Below are positions 7,486-26,673 of a stretch of DNA of 64,000 bases, in pieces. This DNA comes from Orenia metallireducens (lineage in GTDB: Bacteria > Bacillota > Halanaerobiia > Halobacteroidales > Halobacteroidaceae). How positions within the stretch are numbered: the stretch's first letter is position 1; every line of letters starts with the position of its first letter. The notes under the pieces were generated by a model. The model did not search any database and was not told the origin of the DNA. It saw only the letters and a list, made by a program, of their open reading frames with translations. The stretch is from NCBI RefSeq assembly GCF_003001995.1, contig NZ_PVNB01000007.1:1-64000 (forward strand), given 5' to 3'. The translations under genes and the position numbers were made by a program.

Positions 7486-9135
7486 CTACTCTACAGAAAT
7501 AATATAATAATATATAGGCTGATATCCATCATAGATTTCAATATCAAAGTCTTCATATAGCTCTTCCAAATTATGTATTAATTCCTCTTTATCTTCTAAA
7601 GATACCTCTTCTCCTACATAAATAGTAATTAAGGAGTCATCAGCTTCAACCATATCTGTTAATAACTCTAAGGTCGCTTGATTGTAATGGGAGGATACAA
7701 CCTCTATATTTCCTTCTATCAAGCCTAAAATATCACCTTTATTGATCTCTAACTCATTAATCTTAGTATCTCTAACAGCATAAGTAACCTCTCCTGTCTT
7801 AACAAATTCAAGCTCTTCTTTCATCTGAGCAGCAACCTCTTTAAGATTACCTGCTGGATTGAAGACCATCATTGCTGTTACACCTTGAGGAATAGTCTTA
7901 GTTGGAATAACCTCAATCTCCTTATCTGTCAACTCTTTAAGCTGCTTAGCAGTAGAGATAACGTTTTTATTATTTGGTAAGATAATTACTTTATCGGTAT
8001 TAATCTGCTCTACAGAGTCTAATAAATCTTGAATACTTGGATTCATTGATTGACCACCTAGAAGTACATTAGCTGCTCCAAGCTTATTAAAGATAACTTC
8101 TAACCCTTCTCCAGCAGCTACCGCTAAAACTCCTATTCCATCAAGCACTTCTTGCTCTTGCTTAAGTGCCTTTTGCTCTGCTTCAATCTCTTTTTTTAGC
8201 CTCTCCTCATGCTGTTCAGACATATTTTCAATCTTAATTCGAGTCAATTGCCCATACTTTAACCCTTCTTCTAATACTGCCCCTGGGTGCTTAGCATGGA
8301 CATGAACCTTTAAAATGCCATCAGATTTAACAGCAATAATAGAGTCACCGTAATCACTTAATATTTCTTTAAATTCATCAGCCTCAACCTTAGCATTCTT
8401 CACAATAAATTCAGTACAATAACCAAACTCCTCTATAGCTGATGGCTCTATTGTAGTATTAGTCTTTGCTCTAACTCCTTCTCTGATAACGATTGGAGTA
8501 TCAGAGCTTAGACCTTGTACGAGTCCTGTTAGAAACATTTGATAGCCTTTACCACCAGCATCTACTACCCCAGCTTCCTGCAAAGCATCTAATAAATTAG
8601 GTGTGTTGGCTACAGACTTCTCAGCCTCTTTTACCGACTCTATTAGAAGTTCAGCTACAGTTAACTCAGCAGCCAATTTCTTAGCTTTTTTTCCTACATC
8701 CTTGGCTACTGTTAAAATAGTTCCTTCCACAGGCTTCATTACCGCTTGATAAGCCTTATCAGCAGCTTTTTGTAAACCATTAGCTAGAACTTCTGCTGTC
8801 AATAACTTAGCATTACCAATGCCATCAGCCAAACCTCTTAAAAGCTGGGATAAGATTACCCCTGAATTTCCTCTAGCTCCCATCAAAGCCCCCATTGCTA
8901 AACTATTGGCCACAGCCCCTACTGAATCCTCTGTAGTAGACTCTAGCTCATCGACAGCATTTGATAGAGTCAGATACATATTGGTTCCTGTATCACCATC
9001 GGGAACAGGAAAGATATTCAAATCATTGATTTCATCCTCTACCTCTTTTAAAGTATTAGTTGCTACTAGTAGCATTTGTTTGAATTTAGCTGAATTTATC
9101 TGCTTTATCTCCTTAGTCAATGAATCAGGTAGCAT
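7486..9135 (-). CDS. fakA: Fatty acid kinase subunit FakA (DAK2 domain fusion, YloV family)
   Basis: 549 residues. The N-terminal DAK2 (dihydroxyacetone-kinase-like) nucleotide domain carries NIFPVPDGDTGTNMYLTL (residues ~41-57) and the GARGNSGVILSQ loop. A middle domain follows. The C-terminal domain (~residues 340-549) resembles DegV. It phosphorylates the acid bound by a FakB protein. It overlaps the end of the Asp23 gene by 11 bases, and the DegV/FakB gene follows 12 bases later, so the three form an operon (asp23-fakA-degV). This matches the conserved Firmicutes order. Confidence 0.95.
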   Translation of the reverse strand: MLPDSLTKEIKQINSAKFKQMLLVATNTLKEVEDEINDLNIFPVPDGDTGTNMYLTLSNAVDELESTTEDSVGAVANSLAMGALMGARGNSGVILSQLLRGLADGIGNAKLLTAEVLANGLQKAADKAYQAVMKPVEGTILTVAKDVGKKAKKLAAELTVAELLIESVKEAEKSVANTPNLLDALQEAGVVDAGGKGYQMFLTGLVQGLSSDTPIVIREGVRAKTNTTIEPSAIEEFGYCTEFIVKNAKVEADEFKEILSDYGDSIIAVKSDGILKVHVHAKHPGAVLEEGLKYGQLTRIKIENMSEQHEERLKKEIEAEQKALKQEQEVLDGIGVLAVAAGEGLEVIFNKLGAANVLLGGQSMNPSIQDLLDSVEQINTDKVIILPNNKNVISTAKQLKELTDKEIEVIPTKTIPQGVTAMMVFNPAGNLKEVAAQMKEELEFVKTGEVTYAVRDTKINELEINKGDILGLIEGNIEVVSSHYNQATLELLTDMVEADDSLITIYVGEEVSLEDKEELIHNLEELYEDFDIEIYDGYQPIYYYIISVE

Positions 9136-9493
9136 TATTCACCCTCACTCCTTGTACATTAATATTGACCTCCAACACACTTACCCCTGTCATCTCTTCT
9201 AATGTATATTTTACTCTATCAATTATATTATTAGCTACCTCTGAAATTTTAGTTCCATACTCTACAATAATATATAAATCAACTCTTACTCCCTCTTCGG
9301 TAGTCTCTACTTCAACACCCTTACTTAGATGATCATTTACTAACAGCTTTGCTAGACCATCTTGAATGCTTTTACTGGCCATACCCACCAATCCATAACA
9401 TTCCATTGCAGCTAAACCCGCAATAATTGAAATAACTTCCTCAGATATTTTAACCATTCCTAACTCATTTGTCAACTCTTGCCCCATTGTCAT
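9125..9493 (-). CDS. Asp23/Gls24 family envelope stress protein (YloU-like)
   Basis: 122 residues covering the Asp23 fold (ISEEVISIIAGLAAMECYGLVGM; then VRVDLYIIVEYGTKISEVA; then VNINVQGV). Asp23 proteins are alkaline-stress and envelope-associated, and sit just upstream of fakA in many Firmicutes (yloU-yloV). The start at 9493 has GGGGG eight bases upstream. Its last codons overlap the fakA start. Confidence 0.92.
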   Translation of the reverse strand: MTMGQELTNELGMVKISEEVISIIAGLAAMECYGLVGMASKSIQDGLAKLLVNDHLSKGVEVETTEEGVRVDLYIIVEYGTKISEVANNIIDRVKYTLEEMTGVSVLEVNINVQGVRVNNAT

Positions 9494-9514
9494 ACTTTAT
9501 TCCCCCTTGTTAAA

Positions 9515-9715
9515 TCAATTATTCTGAATAAGATTATTTAATTCCTTCAATAGCAAGTTTAAATCCAAATTATTGGCCTTAGCTACTGTTTCTAAGTCTT
9601 CATAGTTGGCAGCTAAACACTTAGCACATCCTAGACCATAAGCTTTAAAAATCTGATTAACCTCTGGATACTCCTGTAAAATTTTTAATACTGATGTCTT
9701 TTTACTAAGTTTCAT
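9515..9715 (-). CDS. DUF1858 redox-disulfide protein
   Basis: 66 residues, with a CAKC motif in GLGCAKCLAANYEDLETVA. This matches the DUF1858/TIGR03980 family ('hybrid cluster protein-associated disulfide redox domain'). The pair of cysteines suggests a thiol or redox function; the exact role is unknown. An AGGAGG ribosome site precedes the ATG. It is 22 bases upstream of the Asp23 gene and likely cotranscribed with it. Confidence 0.88.
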   Translation of the reverse strand: MKLSKKTSVLKILQEYPEVNQIFKAYGLGCAKCLAANYEDLETVAKANNLDLNLLLKELNNLIQNN

Positions 9716-9792
9716 CTTTGACCTCCTACCTGATTATTATTCAATAGAAGTCAATAAAATCCTTCTTTATAAGATAAAATACAAAATTAACC

Positions 9793-9821
9793 TTGCTACT
9801 TACCCACCTTTTGTGTTAAAA
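9793..9821 (+). promoter_or_regulatory. Probable sigma-70-type promoter of rpmB
   Basis: TTGCTA at 9793-9798, a 17-base spacer and TTAAAA at 9816-9821. It lies 60 bases upstream of rpmB in a divergent intergenic region. The -10 box is a moderate match. Confidence 0.5.
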
Positions 9822-9881
9822 TGTTTAAGTGGTTCTAGCTAAAACATAAAATATTGATATAGATTAAAGGAGGTGCAATAA

Positions 9882-10112
9882 ATGGCAAGGATATGTGAAA
9901 TCTGTGGAAAAGGATCTAATACTGCTAATAGTGTTACTCGTAGAGGTAAGGCTAAAAAAGAAGGTGGAGTTGGTCGTAATGTAACTGGTATTGCAAAAAG
10001 AACTCAACGACCTAACCTACAAAAAGTTAAAGCTGTTGTTGATGGTACTACTAAAAGAATTAAAGTATGTACTTCTTGCTTGAAAGCAGGCAAGGTAGAA
10101 AGAGCATATTAA
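9882..10112 (+). CDS. rpmB: 50S ribosomal protein L28
   Basis: 76 residues, slightly longer than the common 62-64. It has CEICGKG at the N-terminus and VCTSCLKAGKV at the C-terminus, giving two CxxC pairs, so this is the zinc-binding (C+) form of L28. AAAGGAGGTG lies six bases before the ATG. It is monocistronic, divergent from the DUF1858 gene, and closed by its own terminator. Confidence 0.98.
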   Translation: MARICEICGKGSNTANSVTRRGKAKKEGGVGRNVTGIAKRTQRPNLQKVKAVVDGTTKRIKVCTSCLKAGKVERAY

Positions 10113-14018: not shown

Positions 14019-15222
14019 TTTTATTAACACTTCCATGTACCTTTAATGGTAGACCAAATAATTCGATAAATCCGATAGCAGAATCATGATTGAAAGTATC
14101 AGATGTTTCATAAGTAGCCAAGTTCTCTTGGTATAATGAATTATCAGACTTTCTTCCTACTACTGTAGCATTTCCTTTATATAATTTAAGCTTAACTGTT
14201 CCATTTACATACTGTTGAGTTGTATCAACAAAGGCATCTAAAGCAGCCCTTAATGGTGAGAACCATTGTCCATAATAAACTAATTCTGAATATTTTTGAG
14301 CAACTAATTCTTTGTAATGATAGGTCTCTCTATCTAAGACTAAGTCCTCTAAATGTCTATGAGCTGTAATTAATACAGTAGCAGCTGGAGCTTCATAGAT
14401 CTCTCTAGATTTAATTCCTACCAATCTATTCTCCACCATATCGATTCTTCCAATACCATGCTTACCTGCAATTTCATTTAATTTAGATACTAACTCTACT
14501 GGACCATCCTCTTGTCCATTTAATGCTACTGGTTCACCAGCTTTAAAAGTAACCTCTATATACTCAGGGTCATTTGGTGCATCCTCTGGAGCAGTAGTAA
14601 TCTGATATACATCTGCAGGTGGTTCTGCCCAAGGATCCTCTAAAATTCCACACTCTATACTAACTCCCCATAGGTTTCTATCGATACTATATGGACTCTC
14701 TTTAGTAGCACCTACTGGTATATTATGCTTAGCGGCATATTCGATCTCTTGACTTCTAGCTTTAAACTCCCACTCTCTTAAAGGAGCTACAACTTCAATT
14801 CCTGGAGATAATGCTTGGAAAGAAACATCAAATCTTACCTGATCATTACCCTTGGCAGTACAACCATGGGCTACTGCATCAGCACCTTCTTTTTTAGCAA
14901 CATCGATCATCTTTTTAGCAATCAACGGTCTAGAATAAGCTGTAGCCAATGGATATTTAGCTTCATATAATGCTCCTGCTTTTAAACCTTTGAAGACATA
15001 CTCCTTTAAAAATTCTTCTTGTAAATCTTCAATATAGATATTACTTGCACCAGTATTTAAGGCCTTCTCTTCTAAAGGTGCTAAATCTTCATTCTGCCCT
15101 ACATCTGCTGAAAAGCAGACTACCTCTACATCATATGTATCCTGTAACCATTTAATAGCTACCGATGTATCTAACCCTCCTGAATAAGCCATAACTACCT
15201 TGTTTATCTTCTTCTCCATCAT
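14014..15222 (-). CDS. argG: Argininosuccinate synthase
   Basis: About 402 residues, standard length. It condenses citrulline and aspartate using ATP. The PP-loop [15 protein letters not shown] is at residues ~12-26, and [14 protein letters not shown] and the SIDRNLWG segment are present. Starts ATG 15222 or 15219 both sit behind AGGAGG. The promoter carries an ArgR-type box, consistent with repression by arginine. It is first in the argG-GNAT-argH series. The last codons are part of an intergenic hairpin element. Confidence 0.98.
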
Positions 15223-15274
15223 CAACGCCTCCTAATTTATCTCAAAATGATTTTTATTTATTTTTGTTAGTATG

Positions 15275-15303
15275 ATTATACATGTTATTGCATAAAAATA
15301 CAA
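15275..15303 (-). promoter_or_regulatory. argG promoter with ArgR-type operator
   Basis: On the minus strand: -35 TTGTAT (15303-15298), 17-base spacer, -10 TATAAT (15280-15275). TGTATTTTTATGCA (15302-15289) fits the ARG-box pattern TGNATWWWWATNCA and covers the -35. The argF promoter has a matching box at the same place. Confidence 0.7.
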
Positions 15304-15347
15304 GTACAATATTAAAGTTTGAATTTTCTGAAAACAACCCAAACCTT

Positions 15348-17156
15348 CTATAACTCATATATATCTGAAAACTCAATATCTATTCTATCAATTAACTCCT
15401 CCTTTAGAGAAATTTCTGTAGCAGCAAATTCTATATCCTCTTTTTCCAAAACTATATTTGGTAGCTTAATTATAAATTCACTCCCTTTACCATATTCACT
15501 CTCTACCTCAATCTCTCCCCCATGCATCTCTACTAGCAGCTTAACTATTACTAAACCGATGCCACTACCCTCTTTTCTTCTAGTAAAAGATTTATCAGCT
15601 TGACCAAACCTTTCAAAAATTATCTTCTTCTGCTCTTCTTTAATACCTATCCCTGTATCCTTTACAGATATGTATATATACTGCTGCTCTTCAAAGATTC
15701 TAACTATTATCTTATCACCTTTGTTACTGAACTTAACAGCATTTGATAAGAGGTTTAACATAATCCTTTCAATATTAGTAGCATCACAAGTAATAACTCT
15801 CTTAAATAATTCAGATTCAAAGCTAATCTCTCTAGCAGAACTGTCTAAATAATCTTTTACAGATAGGACTATGTTATCAATAAGTTCTACAATATTATGG
15901 TTTTGTAGGTTGAAATCATAGAAATTAGCATCAATCTTGGTGATATCCACTAAATTATTAATTAATCTCAATAGTCTATAAATATTACGCCGCATAATTT
16001 TACTATACTTACTGAGATTATTATAATTATCTTTATCTAAATTTCTTTTAGTATAAATCTCTTGCATCTGCACTGCAGAGAAGATTAAATTCAAAGGTGT
16101 TCTCATCTCATGGGATAAATTGGCGAAAAATTCCCCCTGAGCTTTATTACTCTCTACTCTCTCTTCTAGCCATTTACGCTCAGTGATATCTATTCCTGAG
16201 CCAAAAACCCCTTGAATCTCCCCATTATTATCTTTTAGACGGGCAAGATGCCAAGAAACGATTCTTACTGTTCCATATTTTGTTAAAACTTCAGTCTCAA
16301 CATATTCTGGTACTTCCTCTTCTTCATTAAATAGTCTTTTAAAGAAGCTCTTTGCCTCTATTCCATCCCCTTGATAGAATTTAAAGATGCTCTCTCCCAC
16401 TACTTCTTTTTCACTATATCCAAACTCTTTAAATCCTCCCTGATTAAAAAAAGTAATCTTCTGTTCTTTATTGACGACTATAAAGATCACATCAACAATC
16501 CCCAATACCTTTAAAGCTGAAAATATCAGTTCCAGTGAATAATTTAAGTGCTTAGATATATCTGTAATCGAATTCTCTTTTACTTTGTTAGGGATGAATT
16601 TCTCTTTCACTAATCTCTCTTTACTCATATCTACCCCTGAGCTGATGATTTCTTCCACATTTCCTGCCTCATCCTTTAAAGTACTGTTATACCAACCTAT
16701 TATTCGCTCATTACCATCTTTATCTACTAATGTTCCTGAGGTATAATTAGGTAGTTCAACCTCTCCCTTTACTACTCTTTCTAATAGTTTTATCTTCTGC
16801 TGATTCTGATTAAACTCTTTAAACCAGAAACTTCCTATAATCTCTTCTTGATCTTGACCTAATAGCTCACAGCCCCTTTGATTAATAAATTCTACTCTCC
16901 CTTGCTTGTCTAACACTAATAAGATAAATTTAGATAGATTGATATATTCCTTTAAGTTATCTCTTTCTACTGCTAACTCTTTATTTAAAACCTTAGATTT
17001 AGAATATAGCTTGACAAATTTAAATAAAACTATGTAAATTAAAGATAAACTTAATACTGCCACTATATCAATCAAGCTTAAACTTTCTATGTGCCTAGCT
17101 AACACAATATTAAATATTATCCCCAACAAGATTAAAATAATAAGTATTCTTCTCAT
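15348..17156 (-). CDS. PAS-domain sensor histidine kinase
   Basis: About 602 residues from MRRILIIL; an upstream in-frame start at 17231 lacks a ribosome site, while ATG 17156 has GGTGGG. Two transmembrane helices lie in residues ~2-50. Two PAS domains follow (around FILLVLDKQGRVEFINQRGCELLG and VIFIVVNKEQKITFFNQGG). Then HisKA with FFANLSHEMRTPLNLI (His phosphorylation site) and HATPase_c with NLLSNAVKF, DTGIGI and GSGIGL. The last ~30 residues are an acidic tail. No response regulator is adjacent, so this is an orphan kinase. Its signal is unknown; PAS pairs often sense redox state or small ligands. Confidence 0.93.
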   Translation of the reverse strand: MRRILIILILLGIIFNIVLARHIESLSLIDIVAVLSLSLIYIVLFKFVKLYSKSKVLNKELAVERDNLKEYINLSKFILLVLDKQGRVEFINQRGCELLGQDQEEIIGSFWFKEFNQNQQKIKLLERVVKGEVELPNYTSGTLVDKDGNERIIGWYNSTLKDEAGNVEEIISSGVDMSKERLVKEKFIPNKVKENSITDISKHLNYSLELIFSALKVLGIVDVIFIVVNKEQKITFFNQGGFKEFGYSEKEVVGESIFKFYQGDGIEAKSFFKRLFNEEEEVPEYVETEVLTKYGTVRIVSWHLARLKDNNGEIQGVFGSGIDITERKWLEERVESNKAQGEFFANLSHEMRTPLNLIFSAVQMQEIYTKRNLDKDNYNNLSKYSKIMRRNIYRLLRLINNLVDITKIDANFYDFNLQNHNIVELIDNIVLSVKDYLDSSAREISFESELFKRVITCDATNIERIMLNLLSNAVKFSNKGDKIIVRIFEEQQYIYISVKDTGIGIKEEQKKIIFERFGQADKSFTRRKEGSGIGLVIVKLLVEMHGGEIEVESEYGKGSEFIIKLPNIVLEKEDIEFAATEISLKEELIDRIDIEFSDIYEL

Positions 17157-20865: not shown

Positions 20866-21783
20866 TCACCAATCATAATTATCCTCTTGATTATCTCCAG
20901 ACTGCTTCATCTGTTGATTATTCTTAAGACTATCCTTCTCTTCCTTCTCCAGTGCTTGGAGTATAGTTAATGCTTCCTCTAGCTTTTTTGGGTCTAGCTT
21001 GCCCTCCTGCTGTTGTGGAGTAGCTTCTTGAGCAGAATTTTTCTGTTTATCGTCTGCTTTATTCTCTTTGACCTGACTATCTTCACTAGATTTTTGCTCT
21101 TGTTGGTCTTTCTGTCCTTCTCTTCCATCTGATTTTTTATTATTTTCCTGATTTTGCTTATCCCCTTGATTTTCTTTTTTATTATCTTGATTTTGCTTAT
21201 TATCCTTATTCTGTTCTTCTTTATCTTGAGAGCCCTTCTGACCATCCTGATTCTCTTTCTTCTTTTGACTTTCTTTATTCTCTTGTTCTTTCTTATTATC
21301 TTGTTGATTTTTCTGCTTTTTTTTCAATTTAGTTAATAATTGATCGACATATTCATAGTTAAACTTCAACTTTCTATCATTCATATCTAGTTTAATTGCT
21401 GATTTATAGTTGTGCAAAGACTCTTGATAATTTTTAATCTTCTCAGCTATCTGTTGGCTCTGATCTCCTAACCTCTTATAAGCATTTCCTATGTTCATAT
21501 AAAGATCTTTATCTTTGGCTATTTGATTATAATAAGTTAAAGACTCCTTATATCTCTTCTGCTTATATAAAGCATTGGCTAGATTATAATTTAGCTGCTG
21601 GTTATTGGAATTAACTTTTAATCCTGATCGGTAATGCTTTATAGCTTCCTGATATTTACCCTGATTATAAAGTTGATTCCCTTCTTCTAGCAGCTGAGCT
21701 ATACTCTTTTGCTCCCTGTTGCATCCTGTCAATAAGATTACTATCATTAAAATAAAGATAAAGTAATAAGAGCTTCTCTTCAT
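20866..21783 (-). CDS. TPR lipoprotein of the Bat operon (BatC/BatE-like)
   Basis: 305 residues. The lipobox is LLTGC (residues ~17-21), so it is probably a lipid-anchored envelope protein. Residues ~30-150 hold three TPR units (YNQGKYQEAIKHYRSGL, YKQKRYKESLTYYNQI, and a third). Residues ~155-255 are a low-complexity Gln/Asn/Lys/Glu stretch. The start ATG overlaps the upstream VWA stop by ATGA. In Bat operons TPR proteins sit beside the VWA proteins, as here. Confidence 0.82.
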   Translation of the reverse strand: MKRSSYYFIFILMIVILLTGCNREQKSIAQLLEEGNQLYNQGKYQEAIKHYRSGLKVNSNNQQLNYNLANALYKQKRYKESLTYYNQIAKDKDLYMNIGNAYKRLGDQSQQIAEKIKNYQESLHNYKSAIKLDMNDRKLKFNYEYVDQLLTKLKKKQKNQQDNKKEQENKESQKKKENQDGQKGSQDKEEQNKDNKQNQDNKKENQGDKQNQENNKKSDGREGQKDQQEQKSSEDSQVKENKADDKQKNSAQEATPQQQEGKLDPKKLEEALTILQALEKEEKDSLKNNQQMKQSGDNQEDNYDW

Positions 21784-22757
21784 TTAAGCCCCCTCCATTC
21801 AGGTAAAAGATATCCTACTAAGAATAAGAATAGACCAGTGGCTAAGAAATACTGATATATCTTAGTAAACTTCTTCACCTTATCCTTACTGTATTTATCC
21901 CTTTTTAATTTGGATATGTCATCAATCAACTGTCCAATCTCACCACCGGTTAAAGAAGCAAGATAGAACTTCCCTCCTCCATTCTCAGCAATCTTCTTTA
22001 AGGAAGCGATATTCAATTTAGAGTTGACATACTTGCCTGCTTGATTTCTCTTATAGCCGACTTTAGTTCCCTGACTATCATATGCAGGAATTAATGCCCC
22101 TTCTTTACTACCTACACCTACTGTATATACCTTCACCTCTTCTAGACCCTTAGCTACCTCTATTCCAGATTGGTTGTGCTCCTCCCCATCACTAAAGATA
22201 ACTACAACTTTATCACCCTTAGCCGATTCGTCAAAAGACTCTTTAGCTAACTTTAGGGCAGCAGCAATATTTGTTCCTCCTCCAGCAATCAGATCAGTAT
22301 CGATTACCTCTAAAAACATCTTTGCTAGATCATAATCATCAGTTAAAGGCATCTGGACATAAGAGTCTGAGGAGAAAGGAATCAAACCAATCCGATCTCC
22401 TTCTAGAGAATCGATTAAATTCTCTATACTCTTTTTGCTCCTTGCCAACCTATTTGGTTTGATATCCTCAGCTAACATACTCTTAGAGGTATCGACTAAG
22501 ATGTATAGATCTAAGCCTGATCGTTCGACCTCTTGATACCCCTTAAGAATCTGAGGACCTAATAGAGAAAAGGCTATCAATATAATCCCCAAGGTCATTA
22601 AGGTAGGTTTAATTACCTTAAACCTATAATCTATATTAAAAGACAAGGCTTTAATAATTGAATTACGCTTCTGATAGGCCAAAATTAAAGTTATAAGTAC
22701 TAAAATTGGAATTAAAAAAAATATATAATTATGTGTATTACTAAACTCCACCTTCAA
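21780..22757 (-). CDS. batB: VWA domain membrane protein (BatB-like)
   Basis: 325 residues. Two N-terminal transmembrane helices (residues ~10-28 and 50-70), a von Willebrand A domain with the MIDAS motif DTSKS (residues ~89-93) and a C-terminal helix near residue 300. It resembles BatB/YfbK-type proteins anchored with the VWA domain outside the membrane. The start is a TTG after GGGGGTGAG. A paralogue lies upstream (22873-23847), separated by a hairpin element. Confidence 0.85.
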   Translation of the reverse strand: MKVEFSNTHNYIFFLIPILVLITLILAYQKRNSIIKALSFNIDYRFKVIKPTLMTLGIILIAFSLLGPQILKGYQEVERSGLDLYILVDTSKSMLAEDIKPNRLARSKKSIENLIDSLEGDRIGLIPFSSDSYVQMPLTDDYDLAKMFLEVIDTDLIAGGGTNIAAALKLAKESFDESAKGDKVVVIFSDGEEHNQSGIEVAKGLEEVKVYTVGVGSKEGALIPAYDSQGTKVGYKRNQAGKYVNSKLNIASLKKIAENGGGKFYLASLTGGEIGQLIDDISKLKRDKYSKDKVKKFTKIYQYFLATGLFLFLVGYLLPEWRGLK

Positions 22758-22775
22758 CTCACCCCCAAATTAAAG

Positions 22776-22872
22776 CAATGTACAATTTACAATTAACAAT
22801 TGATAATTAAAACTATCAAAATATTTTAAGAACTTAATCTTTTAATTGTACATTATCAATTGTAAATTATAG
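22776..22872. repeat. Word-shuffled hairpin (ACAATTTACAATTAAC type)
   Basis: Left arm 22776-22812 and right arm 22840-22872 consist of AATTGTA/TACAATT words and pair imperfectly. It interrupts the Bat operon between the two VWA genes and abuts the batA stop codon. Confidence 0.75.
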
Positions 22873-23847
22873 TCACGGTATTTTAACAAAGAGATACTTC
22901 TCTAAAAAGACCCCAACTAAAAGGAGTAATAGTCCCCATTTAATAAACCCAAAAGCCAATTCCCTATATTCAAAATAATTATTAACATCAAATTTTGTCT
23001 TTTCAAGCTGGTCAATTCTATCAAATATCTCCTTTAAAGCATTGGGATCCTTAGCTCTAAAGTACTCTCCCTGAGTATCTGTAGCAATCTGCTTTAATAG
23101 CTTTTCATCTAAACCACCACGATAGGTCTGATATCTTATTTGACCAAAAAAGTCTTTTCCAACAGGTATCTTAGTGATATCACTGCCTACCCCAACGGTA
23201 TAGATCTTAATCCCCATATCCTTAGCTAACTGGGTTGCTGTCTTGGGATTAACCTTTCCTGCATTATTCTCACCATCGGTCACTAGGATGATGACCTTAG
23301 ATTTGGCATTACTCTTCTTGAGACGATTAATCCCAACAGAAATCCCCATCCCAATGGCAGTTCCATCTCTATTAACATCCTCTGTACTTGTCCTTGCTAA
23401 AGTCTCTTTTAAGATATTATGATCTAAGGTCAGAGGTATCTTAGTATAAGCTGTACCAGAGAAGATAACCAAAGAGATTCTATCCCCCTCCCTGCCCTCA
23501 ACAAACTTACTAATAGTATCCTTAGCTACACTTAGACGATTTGGATCAAAATCTATCGACTTCATGCTCCCCGAAACATCTAAAGCTACTACAATATCTA
23601 TCCCTTCTTTTTTGATATTGCTAAGCTCTTTTCCAGACTGAGGACGGGCTAGAGCAACTACCAATAAAATAACTCCAGCTAAGATTAGATACCTGCCAAA
23701 CTTATGCTTAATTGTCTTCTTCAACCCTGCTTCTTTTAACAGAGCTATACTTGAAAACCCTATACTCTTACTCCTTCTCTTCTTCAAAAAAAGATAGATA
23801 AATATCGGAATCAAAAATAAAAGATACCAGTGCAAGAATCTAAACAT
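22873..23847 (-). CDS. batA: VWA domain membrane protein (BatA-like)
   Basis: 324 residues. N-terminal helices at ~7-22 and 53-70, MIDAS motif DVSGS (residues ~88-92), TDGENNAG, and a C-terminal helix at ~300-320. It matches BatA. It overlaps the upstream gene by eight bases, indicating cotranscription and coupling. Confidence 0.88.
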   Translation of the reverse strand: MFRFLHWYLLFLIPIFIYLFLKKRRSKSIGFSSIALLKEAGLKKTIKHKFGRYLILAGVILLVVALARPQSGKELSNIKKEGIDIVVALDVSGSMKSIDFDPNRLSVAKDTISKFVEGREGDRISLVIFSGTAYTKIPLTLDHNILKETLARTSTEDVNRDGTAIGMGISVGINRLKKSNAKSKVIILVTDGENNAGKVNPKTATQLAKDMGIKIYTVGVGSDITKIPVGKDFFGQIRYQTYRGGLDEKLLKQIATDTQGEYFRAKDPNALKEIFDRIDQLEKTKFDVNNYFEYRELAFGFIKWGLLLLLVGVFLEKYLFVKIP

Positions 23848-24637
23848 AATTCACACCTTCTTTACTTGCTTCTATCAAATCGACTATTCTAATCAACTCT
23901 TCACGCTTCTCTTTCTTCTTTTCTAAGCTGACCTCCTTGCCTCTATACTTGCAGATATCAACAAAGCTCAACCATTCTTTAATCTGATTTAAATAATCAT
24001 CTAATTGGGGAATATAATTTATCTCTGCAATAATTTCATTAGAGGTCTTACCTATAATTTTACGATTGAAGGTCTGTTCTAAATAATCCTTAAAAGCAAG
24101 GGTTAAATAGACAAAATAATTATCATCCTCTAGCTTAATCTCCTCTATCTTAGTTCTAAACTGACTATAAACACTCAACTCTTTTCTACTTCTATTGCTA
24201 AATATCTTTCTTAAACGCAAAAATGATAATAATGCAATCACAGCCACCATCACAACTAACAGCTTATACATAGGAAGCATCTTATCGACCTCCTTAGCCT
24301 CTAAATCACCTTTAAAGATATCCTGGCGATCGATCTCATCCAAAGTAGATGCTACTTGAATCTTCAACTGCCTATCACCTAGCTTGACAATCTTCTTACC
24401 TGCTTCAAAGCTCCTAATCGCTATTTTGTATCCTGAATCTATCTTTTCTAAGCTCTCTATCTCAAAATCTTTAAAGCTATCTCTAATCTCTGCTTGGGAT
24501 AGATCGGTCTTAGCTATCTCTAATTGAATCAAATCGCCGATATGAATAGCTCTACTTTCAGCATATACATAACTATTAACTAAAACTAACCCAGCTAAGA
24601 GCACAGCTAATAAAATAAAATTTCTTCTCATTCTCAT
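23840..24637 (-). CDS. Single-pass membrane protein of the Bat operon
   Basis: 265 residues. Signal peptide (residues 1-26), an extracytoplasmic beta-rich domain to ~125, one transmembrane helix (~126-143) and a cytoplasmic helical domain. The layout and operon place recall the small DUF4381-type proteins of Bat operons, and the C-terminal domain resembles that of BatD, but similarity is weak. It overlaps DUF58 by four bases (ATGA) and batA by eight. Confidence 0.7.
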   Translation of the reverse strand: MRMRRNFILLAVLLAGLVLVNSYVYAESRAIHIGDLIQLEIAKTDLSQAEIRDSFKDFEIESLEKIDSGYKIAIRSFEAGKKIVKLGDRQLKIQVASTLDEIDRQDIFKGDLEAKEVDKMLPMYKLLVVMVAVIALLSFLRLRKIFSNRSRKELSVYSQFRTKIEEIKLEDDNYFVYLTLAFKDYLEQTFNRKIIGKTSNEIIAEINYIPQLDDYLNQIKEWLSFVDICKYRGKEVSLEKKKEKREELIRIVDLIEASKEGVNYV

Positions 24638-25437
24638 CTCATTCTCCTTTTAAAGAATAGCATTAATGCTTTCACAAAATCTTCATCAGTATAGATATTA
24701 AGTAAATTCCTAACTGGTAATTTAATAGTAGATTCCAGCTCAGTTCTACCCTGTAAATTATCTAAAACAATAGTCTCACCAGTCTCTAAATCTTCAAATT
24801 CAAAGATAGCACCCTTTGGTAGACTCTCTTCTCCTTTATCGATAACTCTAATTAAAACTAGATCATGCTTCTTATCAGCTATCTTTAACTCCTTCTCATA
24901 ATCCTTATCAAGAAAATCAGAGATTAAAAAAACTATACTCCGCTTCTTCTCTACTCTATTGAAATACTGTAGAGCCTTTTTAATAGCTGTACCTTGATTA
25001 TTAGGTTGAAAACTTAAAATCTCCTCAATAATAGATAAGACATGCCTCTTCCCCTTTTTAGACGGAATCAGCTTCTCCACCTTATCAGTAAATAGAATGC
25101 TACCTACCTTATCATTATTCTTCACTGCCGAAAAGGCAAGAGTAGCACCAATCTCAGCTATAATATCCTTCTTCTTAGCAAAACTATTAGAGCGGGACAT
25201 ATCTATTAAGAGAAACATATTCAGCTCCCGTTCTTCATGAAACTTCTTGATATAGGCCTTGTTCTGGCGAGCCGTTACATTCCAATCTATACTTCTAATC
25301 TCATCACCAGGATAATACTCCCTGATCTCATCAAACTCCATCCCCTTGCCTTGAAAGGCAGAGCGATACTCTCCAGAAAATATCTCCTCAATAATTCTAT
25401 TAGATTTAATCTCTATCCTTCTTATCTTTTTAATCAA
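24634..25437 (-). CDS. DUF58 domain protein of the Bat operon
   Basis: At least 267 residues. The DUF58 signatures FSGEYRSAFQGKGMEFDEIREYYPGDEIRSIDW and VTARQ are present, with a degenerate VWA MIDAS (LIDMSRS). It is a cytoplasmic partner of MoxR/VWA systems. The TTG at 25437 is the first canonical start, but it is 24 bases from the only good ribosome site (GGAGG, 25466-25462). The frame continues upstream through GTT-TCT-AAA-GAT to ATT (25455) or ATC (25452), and family members usually begin ...SKDLIKKIRRIEI. The true start is therefore probably a non-canonical ATT or ATC at 25455/25452. Confidence 0.88.
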   Translation of the reverse strand: MIKKIRRIEIKSNRIIEEIFSGEYRSAFQGKGMEFDEIREYYPGDEIRSIDWNVTARQNKAYIKKFHEERELNMFLLIDMSRSNSFAKKKDIIAEIGATLAFSAVKNNDKVGSILFTDKVEKLIPSKKGKRHVLSIIEEILSFQPNNQGTAIKKALQYFNRVEKKRSIVFLISDFLDKDYEKELKIADKKHDLVLIRVIDKGEESLPKGAIFEFEDLETGETIVLDNLQGRTELESTIKLPVRNLLNIYTDEDFVKALMLFFKRRMR

Positions 25438-25469
25438 ATCTTTAGAAACGATAATAATTCACCTCCTAA

Positions 25470-25669
25470 AGTTCAGTGATAAGTAACGGGTAACGAGTGA
25501 CCAGTAAAACAATAATTATTATCAAATTTCTTCCTTCGAGTTCTTCGAACTCTTCGTGAGGAGAAATAAAGCTTCATGTTTCTGAGAAACTTTATAATCA
25601 CGGAGAGCTTCTCAAAACTCATAGAGAAAAATTTCCGACCGAATTTTTCCAATCCACTCTTCACTGTTT
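25470..25669. repeat. Composite intergenic repeat in the Bat operon
   Basis: The 233-base gap between DUF58 and moxR holds AGTGATAAGTAACGGGTAACG words at 25476-25500, an inverted TTCGAGTTCTTCGAACTC hairpin near 25535-25552, the ATCACGGAG module shared with the 18.9-kb element, and a weak right arm (CACTCTTCACTG) near 25653. The short reading frame inside it (25473-25664) has no ribosome site and is not counted as a gene. Confidence 0.6.
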
Positions 25670-26638
25670 CTATGGTAATCTTACATTATCCAAAATATCA
25701 GCAATTATATCCTCTTCACTGATCTCCTCAGCCTCTGCTTCATAGCTAAGTAAGATTCTATGACGCAAGACATCATAAACTACTGCTTTAATATCATCAG
25801 GTATTACATAAGCTCTGCCTTCTAAGAAGGCTCGCCCCTTAGCTGCTAAAATTAAATTAATAGAAGCCCTTGGCGATGCTCCACAAGCTATGTATTCATT
25901 CTCTTCTCTAGTCTTAAAGATAATATCAAGAACATAGTCCTTTAGGTTCTCATCAACATAGATATCTCTGACTATCTCTCTAATCTCAAAGATACTATCT
26001 CTACTTAACAGTCTATTTATCTGAATATCTTCCAATCTTCCTTGCTCAGTTATTAAGTCAATAACCTTCTTCTCCTCAGCTTTACTTGGATAACCTACCT
26101 TTAACTTCATCATAAATCTATCCTGTTGAGCCTCTGGCAAAGGATAAGTTCCCTGCTGTTCTAATGGGTTTTGTGTAGCCAATACCAAAAAAGGTCTATC
26201 TAACAGATAAGTCTTCTCACCAATAGTAACCTGCTTTTCTTGCATAGCCTCCAATAAAGCCGACTGTACCTTTGCTGGTGCCCGGTTAATCTCATCAGCA
26301 AGGATAATATTAGCAAAGATTGGACCTTTTTTGGTCACAAACTCTCCTGTATGCTGTTTATAGATCTCTGTCCCCAAAATATCTGCTGGTAATAAATCTG
26401 GAGTAAACTGTATCCTTTTAAAATCAACCCCCAAAACCTTAGCGCAGGTGTTGACTGTCAGTGATTTAGCCAAACCTGGTACACCTTCTAATAATATATG
26501 ACCACCAGTAAAGATTCCAATTAAGATTCTTTCAACCATATAATCTTGTCCTACTACTGATTTTGCTATCTCTTGCTTGACTAAACTGATTAACTCCTTC
26601 TTCTTAGCAACCTTCATTTCTAGCTGTGCAATATCCAT
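25670..26638 (-). CDS. MoxR family AAA+ ATPase
   Basis: About 322 residues from MDIAQLEM. Walker A is in HILLEGVPGLAKS, Walker B ILADEINRAP and sensor-1 LATQNPLEQQGTYPLPEAQQDRF. MoxR ATPases act with VWA proteins as a chaperone pair. The ATG at 26638 follows AAGGAGG by 12 bases; the longer TTG start at 26662 would place the ribosome site inside the gene. It is the first gene of the Bat operon (moxR-DUF58-membrane protein-batA-batB-TPR-batD). Confidence 0.95.
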   Translation of the reverse strand: MDIAQLEMKVAKKKELISLVKQEIAKSVVGQDYMVERILIGIFTGGHILLEGVPGLAKSLTVNTCAKVLGVDFKRIQFTPDLLPADILGTEIYKQHTGEFVTKKGPIFANIILADEINRAPAKVQSALLEAMQEKQVTIGEKTYLLDRPFLVLATQNPLEQQGTYPLPEAQQDRFMMKLKVGYPSKAEEKKVIDLITEQGRLEDIQINRLLSRDSIFEIREIVRDIYVDENLKDYVLDIIFKTREENEYIACGASPRASINLILAAKGRAFLEGRAYVIPDDIKAVVYDVLRHRILLSYEAEAEEISEEDIIADILDNVRLP

Positions 26639-26673
26639 ATCTAAAAACAACCTCCTTAACAATTATAGCTTTA

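Follow-up and report, generated by a model that had tools for sequence, protein, structure and literature searches.

The DUF58 gene of the window (the whole 64,000-nucleotide stretch of Orenia metallireducens DNA that was analysed) is very probably translated from an AUC codon at positions 25452-25450, which a Shine-Dalgarno (SD) sequence would place for the ordinary initiator tRNA in a weak initiation opposed by IF3. This rare start is probably natural, not a sequencing mistake, and one of several rare-start genes in the lineage; we refer to AUU, AUC and AUA together as AUH. The observations that speak for the AUC are the SD itself, the lack of an adjoining canonical start, the preservation of the arrangement in another species of the genus (G001), the ATG that relatives carry at the same position and the ATT start of infC. 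The use of the AUC in the cell, a low output of DUF58 and a dependence on IF3 are what we infer. The features of the region are as follows (G000 is the window's own genome; other G numbers denote other genomes compared).

21780..24637, minus strand: downstream genes for a 265-aa protein that has no Pfam match and for two VWA proteins, the first of them BatA-like
24634..25452, minus strand: DUF58 gene, ATC to stop codon (reading frame; Pfam match)
25435..25437, minus strand: TTG, first canonical start codon in frame (without SD; CTA in G001)
25450..25452, minus strand: ATC, most likely start codon (same in G001; aligns with ATG of G002, G003 and G041; SD spacing 9)
25453..25455, minus strand: ATT, alternative start codon (SD spacing 6; same in G001)
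25456..25458, minus strand: ATT, first in-frame codon, unlikely start (SD spacing 3)
25459..25467, minus strand: extended SD AGGAGGTGA (nine-base match; same in G001)
25474..25654, minus strand: interspersed repeat of the leader, separate from the start signal (25 genome matches at E <=0.001, itself included)
25670..26662, minus strand: MoxR-type AAA ATPase ORF, upstream of DUF58 (PF07726, 215.9 bits)

DUF58 neighbours the MoxR ATPase and VWA genes, all on the same strand, which is a MoxR operon setting, and the part of its product from the TTG onward matches PF01882 (DUF58) at 228.7 bits against a cut-off of 23.4. On the minus strand the start region reads CACTGAACTTTAGGAGG TGA ATT ATT ATC GTT TCT AAA GAT TTG ATT AAA AAG, where the TGA (25461-25459), being the last three bases of the SD, is the in-frame stop that opens the DUF58 frame. 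An earlier sequence-only reading had placed GGAGG at 25466-25462, ATT at 25455-25453 and ATC at 25452-25450, and these coordinates are correct. It was also right that the SD has no in-frame ATG, GTG or TTG to use: none occurs among the codons ahead of the TTG at 25437 (ATT ATT ATC GTT TCT AAA GAT), and this TTG, the first canonical codon, has no SD match of at least four bases. Its statement that the frame upstream of the TTG encodes SKDLIKK holds for SKD, the L being the TTG itself. Two features were absent from it: the in-frame ATT at 25458, at spacing 3, and an out-of-frame GTG (25462-25460) within the SD, whose frame, as judged by eye, closes after six codons.

The SD is uncommon in its length. 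AGGAGGTGA occurs 12 times in 858,087 bases of the window's genome; eight of these occurrences have, 4-12 bases further on, a canonical start that opens an ORF of at least 40 codons, one (DUF58) has AUH only and three have neither. Our reference set consists of 244 ortholog pairs whose canonical start is conserved and whose SD is at least five bases long in both species. A nine-base SD match, such as that of DUF58, is found at one of these 244 starts, and the SD spacing in G000 is 6 in 24 pairs, 7 in 62, 8 in 55 and 9 in 44. By these figures the ATC, at spacing 9, fits at least as well as the ATT at 25455, at spacing 6, and homology favours the ATC.

A protein search of 61 genomes returned DUF58 matches in 18. 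Starts were read in the nine closest (at least 49% identity, the window's own included) and in the more distant L033 and L021-L023 from a contig scan; weaker matches, L035 excepted, were left out of this reading, and L021, a 66% relative from a Halanaerobiaceae bacterium, lies on the same contig as the G041 locus. G001 belongs to another species of the same genus, and its DUF58 has 92% protein identity to that of the window. Its start region reads AGGAGGTGAATTATTATC ATT TCT AAA GAG CTA, with the SD and ATT ATT ATC identical to those of the window, and its next in-frame canonical codon is an ATG 37 codons past the ATC. The third congener, G002, has GGAGGGGTTGTG ATG GTT TCT ACA GAG, G003 has GGAGGTGTGAGT ATG ATT TCT CAA GAT, and G041 has ATG CTT TCA AAA AAG. 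The ATC of the window (25452-25450) aligns with the ATG of these three, and N-terminal homology begins there. Near the same place there is an ATG in G014 and G017 and a GTG or TTG in G040 and G050, which leaves the window and G001 as the two of nine orthologs that have no canonical codon at the proper place. Downstream of the ATC, these two sequences show 21, 13 and 74 differences in codon positions 1, 2 and 3, respectively (271 codons), which is a pattern of the coding type. It counts against the AUC that these two species alone carry it; G002 of the same genus carries ATG. The change from AUG to AUC would most simply have happened in an ancestor that the window's species shares with G001. 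A comparison of the start codon in relatives had been proposed in the sequence-only reading, and its outcome, the same ATT ATT ATC in G001 and ATG in G002, G003 and G041, narrows the claim made there of a start at ATT or ATC: an AUH start is supported, and the ATC is the likelier codon because those three relatives have ATG at its position.

Other starts have to be weighed against the AUC. The ATT at 25455, used alone or together with the ATC, would make the protein one residue longer; its spacing of 6 is an allowed one (24 of 244 conserved starts), it is conserved in G001, and infC of the same lineage uses ATT. However, the relatives' ATG stands at the position of the ATC, and more of the conserved starts (44 of 244) have spacing 9, so that we consider a start at this ATT unlikely. 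Still less can be said for the TTG at 25437 as the start in the window's species, which we judge highly improbable. No canonical codon precedes it in the frame, and a further point against the AUC is that in the window alone a TTG start would cost few residues. Yet the TTG is without an SD of at least four bases, it would leave the strong SD unused, and it cannot be a start shared by both species because G001, which retains the rest, has CTA there.

We give next to no credence to a start at the out-of-frame GTG (25462-25460) with a subsequent +1 shift at TTC TAA A, in the manner of RF2. By eye, the window does offer GTG AAT TAT TAT CGT TTC TAA, and G001 is alike with CAT for CGT, but this GTG lies inside the SD with no SD of its own, and the relatives' ATG is in the DUF58 frame. 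Moreover, SD and shift site stand too far apart for an arrangement like that of RF2. The slightest chance of all belongs to a sequencing error that turned ATG into ATC: the two codons are one base apart, but the same ATC is present in a separate genome of another species, and a read error is very unlikely because G001 has the identical SD and ATT ATT ATC, so that both assemblies would need to contain the same mistake. A read error and a start at the TTG were the two outcomes that the sequence-only reading had set against its own proposal; the former is unsupported given the identical arrangement in a second species, the latter given the CTA of G001.

Several less ordinary causes of an AUC start were tried and rejected. 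An initiator-like anticodon stem of the pattern GGGNTNATAACCC has one match in the genome, with the anticodon CAT, which argues against an altered or extra initiator tRNA for AUH among exact matches to this signature. An unusual IF3 finds no support either, as the infC product read from its ATT aligns with solved IF3 sequences over almost its whole length. A hairpin over the SD is not indicated in the 86-nt start region of the window (z +0.63; 150 of 200 shuffles fold as well or better) or in the start region of G001 (z +0.40; 119 of 200). The whole 281-nt leader folds better than shuffles (z -2.10; 5 of 200), which we put down to the repeat inside it (181 nt, -44 kcal/mol), and no known RNA element came near a gathering score. 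This repeat of about 180 bases can form a long imperfect hairpin, ends in TCACTCGTTACCCGTTACTTATCACTG and is found also at L002, L003, L005 and other loci; it was dismissed as the cause of the odd start, since G001 has the same start behind a short leader, which by eye has a tail similar to that of the repeat. A part of the repeat also occurs as a tandem array at L009 1373-1705 (period 125, 2.7 copies, 99% matches).

Because the searches for an unusual tRNA, IF3 or structure show nothing out of the ordinary, plain weak AUC initiation with an extended SD is what remains. In such a mechanism, the unusually complete SD at nine-base spacing would position the AUC as the start, the ordinary initiator tRNA would read it to give fMet-Val-Ser-Lys-Asp-Leu, and the strength of the SD would compensate for the weak third-base pairing. 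By analogy with the measured cases discussed below, initiation at the AUC would be inefficient and opposed by IF3; DUF58 would then be made in smaller amounts than its MoxR partner, and its level may go up under a shortage of IF3. Low, IF3-sensitive translation of DUF58 is, on this analogy, what we propose as the best mechanism.

The AUC start of DUF58 would be a further instance of the already known natural AUH starts with a strong SD. The sequence-only reading had cited infC as the known case, but others exist: E. coli pcnB, S. aureus cvfC1 and ccpN, and Listeria rnhC. E. coli pcnB starts with AUU and is a chromosomal gene whose inefficient start codon holds it low, as proposed for DUF58; DUF58 differs from it in codon, organism and gene. 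The likeness to infC (AUU or AUA start) lies in an AUH codon behind a strong SD, and infC itself has ATT behind AGGAGGTG or GGAGGTG in all 13 genomes of the order in which it was read. In a few of these, an additional canonical codon stands in frame, either ahead of the SD, within it or several codons further on. However, the infC product controls its own start through autoregulation, whereas DUF58 is not a translation factor and has AUC in two species only. Similar in arrangement are S. aureus cvfC1 (AUU) and ccpN (AUA), with a conserved non-canonical start and an extended SD (PMC13009471); lower translation was demonstrated there, whereas the DUF58 start is AUC and is known from sequence in two species. 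The non-canonical S. aureus starts give about 10% of the AUG output in poor medium, and ccpN up to 30% in rich medium, and the authors tie them to extended SDs and IF3 (PMC13009471). Listeria has ATC in rnhC and ATT in infC; the ATC is a fixed start codon that, according to PMC13068326, experiment has confirmed, rnhC differing from DUF58 as another gene in another lineage. Listeria rsbW reporters rank translation as ATG > ATA > ATT (PMC13068326). In vitro, IF3 cut the full-length product from weak third-base pairs, including AUU read by CAU (PMC10158994). As far as the consulted portions go, the measurements in these three papers (PMC13009471, PMC13068326, PMC10158994) concern AUU and AUA, not AUC with CAU. 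The listed titles and abstract openings of open-licence papers yielded no AUC start of DUF58 and no AUH starts in Halanaerobiales.

Among the other AUH cases in the lineage, spoVB (TIGR02900) is the strongest. Of 31 genomes, 28 had a match, and the best match of 19 genomes was read, more distant and second matches being left out. The gene of the window's genome, at L067 14755 (G000 C2:154755, plus strand), has AUH at the start position. This is so in every member of the window's family: of the eight genomes, six have ATA, one has ATC, one has ATT and none has ATG. At the same position, four of six outgroup genomes carry ATG and the other two GTG. G004, G005, G006 and G007 lack any in-frame canonical codon from the upstream stop as far as codon 13. 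G000, G001, G002 and G003 do have an in-frame GTG or TTG, but it lies within the SD, too close for the SD to serve it. In each of the five genomes of the order's second family, an AUH codon is found no more than two codons away from the start position, and the nearest canonical codon is a TTG six codons further in (G011).

An L,D-transpeptidase (PF03734) has ATC, ATC and ATT in G000, G001 and G002, respectively, and GTG in G005; an in-frame ATG precedes the SD of G002, six codons earlier, and the matches of G003 and G004 were left out of the reading. A MetH-activation-like protein (PF02965, 26.5 bits against a cut-off of 25) has AUH at the position of G003's ATG in the five other family members matched, G000, G001, G002, G004 and G005. 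In G005 and G004 there is also an ATG or GTG in frame, either ahead of the SD or within it. Its distant homologs in four of the five genomes of the second family (about 24-27% identity) have a nearby ATG (three) or GTG (one). BioY, with ATT in G000, G001 and G002, is ambiguous, given an in-frame GTG beside or in the SD.

Some further loci were noted in passing. ThiW at L074 12343-12843 (G000 C3:72843, minus strand) has an apparent ATC or ATT start behind AGAGGTGA and no match in five relatives. Two loci on L127 belong here: a lipoprotein-like signal peptide protein at 8640-9992 (G000 C8:49992, minus strand) with an apparent ATC start behind AGGAGG, and an ABC ATPase gene at 14678-15508 (G000 C8:54678, plus strand) with an apparent CTG start behind AGGAGGTG. 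The best G003 match of the latter has TTG there, and its best G001 match has seven stop codons and looks like a decayed copy. At L094 ~19754 (G001 C8:599754, plus strand) there is a candidate ATC start, GGAGGGAGTATT ATC AAG TTA, with no canonical codon near.

At the genome scale, a first scan gave 23 raw candidates for 355 genes, most of them judged internal. For the window's genome (858 kb), 662 genes were kept, of which 557 had a canonical start with an SD of at least four bases, and 18 others had an SD of at least six; the corresponding numbers were 291, 245 and 6 for G001 (400 kb) and 320, 272 and 10 for G005 (400 kb). By eye, few of the listed non-canonical genes look like AUH starts, and none in G005 is convincing. 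Comparing G000 (858 kb) with G001 (800 kb) gave 370 reciprocal-best pairs. Of these, 304 were canonical in both species, 11 carried an AUH or CTG flag in each, 2 were mixed and 53 were of other types. Inspection by eye retained four flagged pairs, DUF58, the MetH-activation-like protein, the L,D-transpeptidase and SpoVB, or about 1% of pairs; the remaining seven seem to be internal or lie near an ATG or GTG that is, or might be, usable. In Listeria, non-canonical starts are fixed in 6 of 2265 core genes according to the available text (PMC13068326), a loose comparison with our figure, as the methods differ. An automatic count over conserved SD positions lacking canonical starts revealed no bulk excess of AUH, which counts against a special class: codons beginning AT filled 8 of the 40 conserved SD-codon rows, compared with 178 of 990 background codons (ATG included). 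AUH was present in both species in 6 of the 18 genes with any conserved SD-codon row. Since this count lacks a bulk excess, the AUH class can be argued gene by gene only.

Such evidence leaves almost an even chance that the AUC of DUF58 is a real start without a function, a weak codon that drifted in and was tolerated thanks to the strong SD. This possibility shares the start codon with our preferred reading and differs from it on purpose only, so that the two are not mutually exclusive. The presence of AUC in only two of three congeners and the lack of a bulk AUH excess favour it, but spoVB, another gene, keeps AUH throughout the family while the third base varies among A, C and T. The sequence-only reading claims more than the sequence shows in taking the start as a sign of special control: AUC occurs in two of three congeners, and a codon that drifted in and was tolerated thanks to a strong SD would present the same picture. 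It is tempting to suppose that selection keeps a whole class of genes in this order, perhaps tens of them, away from AUG, with infC, spoVB, the L,D-transpeptidase, the MetH-activation-like protein and DUF58 among its members, and that the level of IF3 links them and places cell-wall, sporulation and stress proteins under shared translational control, although we regard this scenario as rather doubtful.

For the genes concerned, annotation restricted to ATG, GTG and TTG would put the start of DUF58 at a TTG without SD in the window and 37 codons late in G001, and it would likewise misplace spoVB in the window's family. The purpose of weak start codons has so far been studied in few genes. If AUH starts are under selection, the AUC and AUG orthologs found within a single genus would provide natural pairs for probing what a weak start is for.
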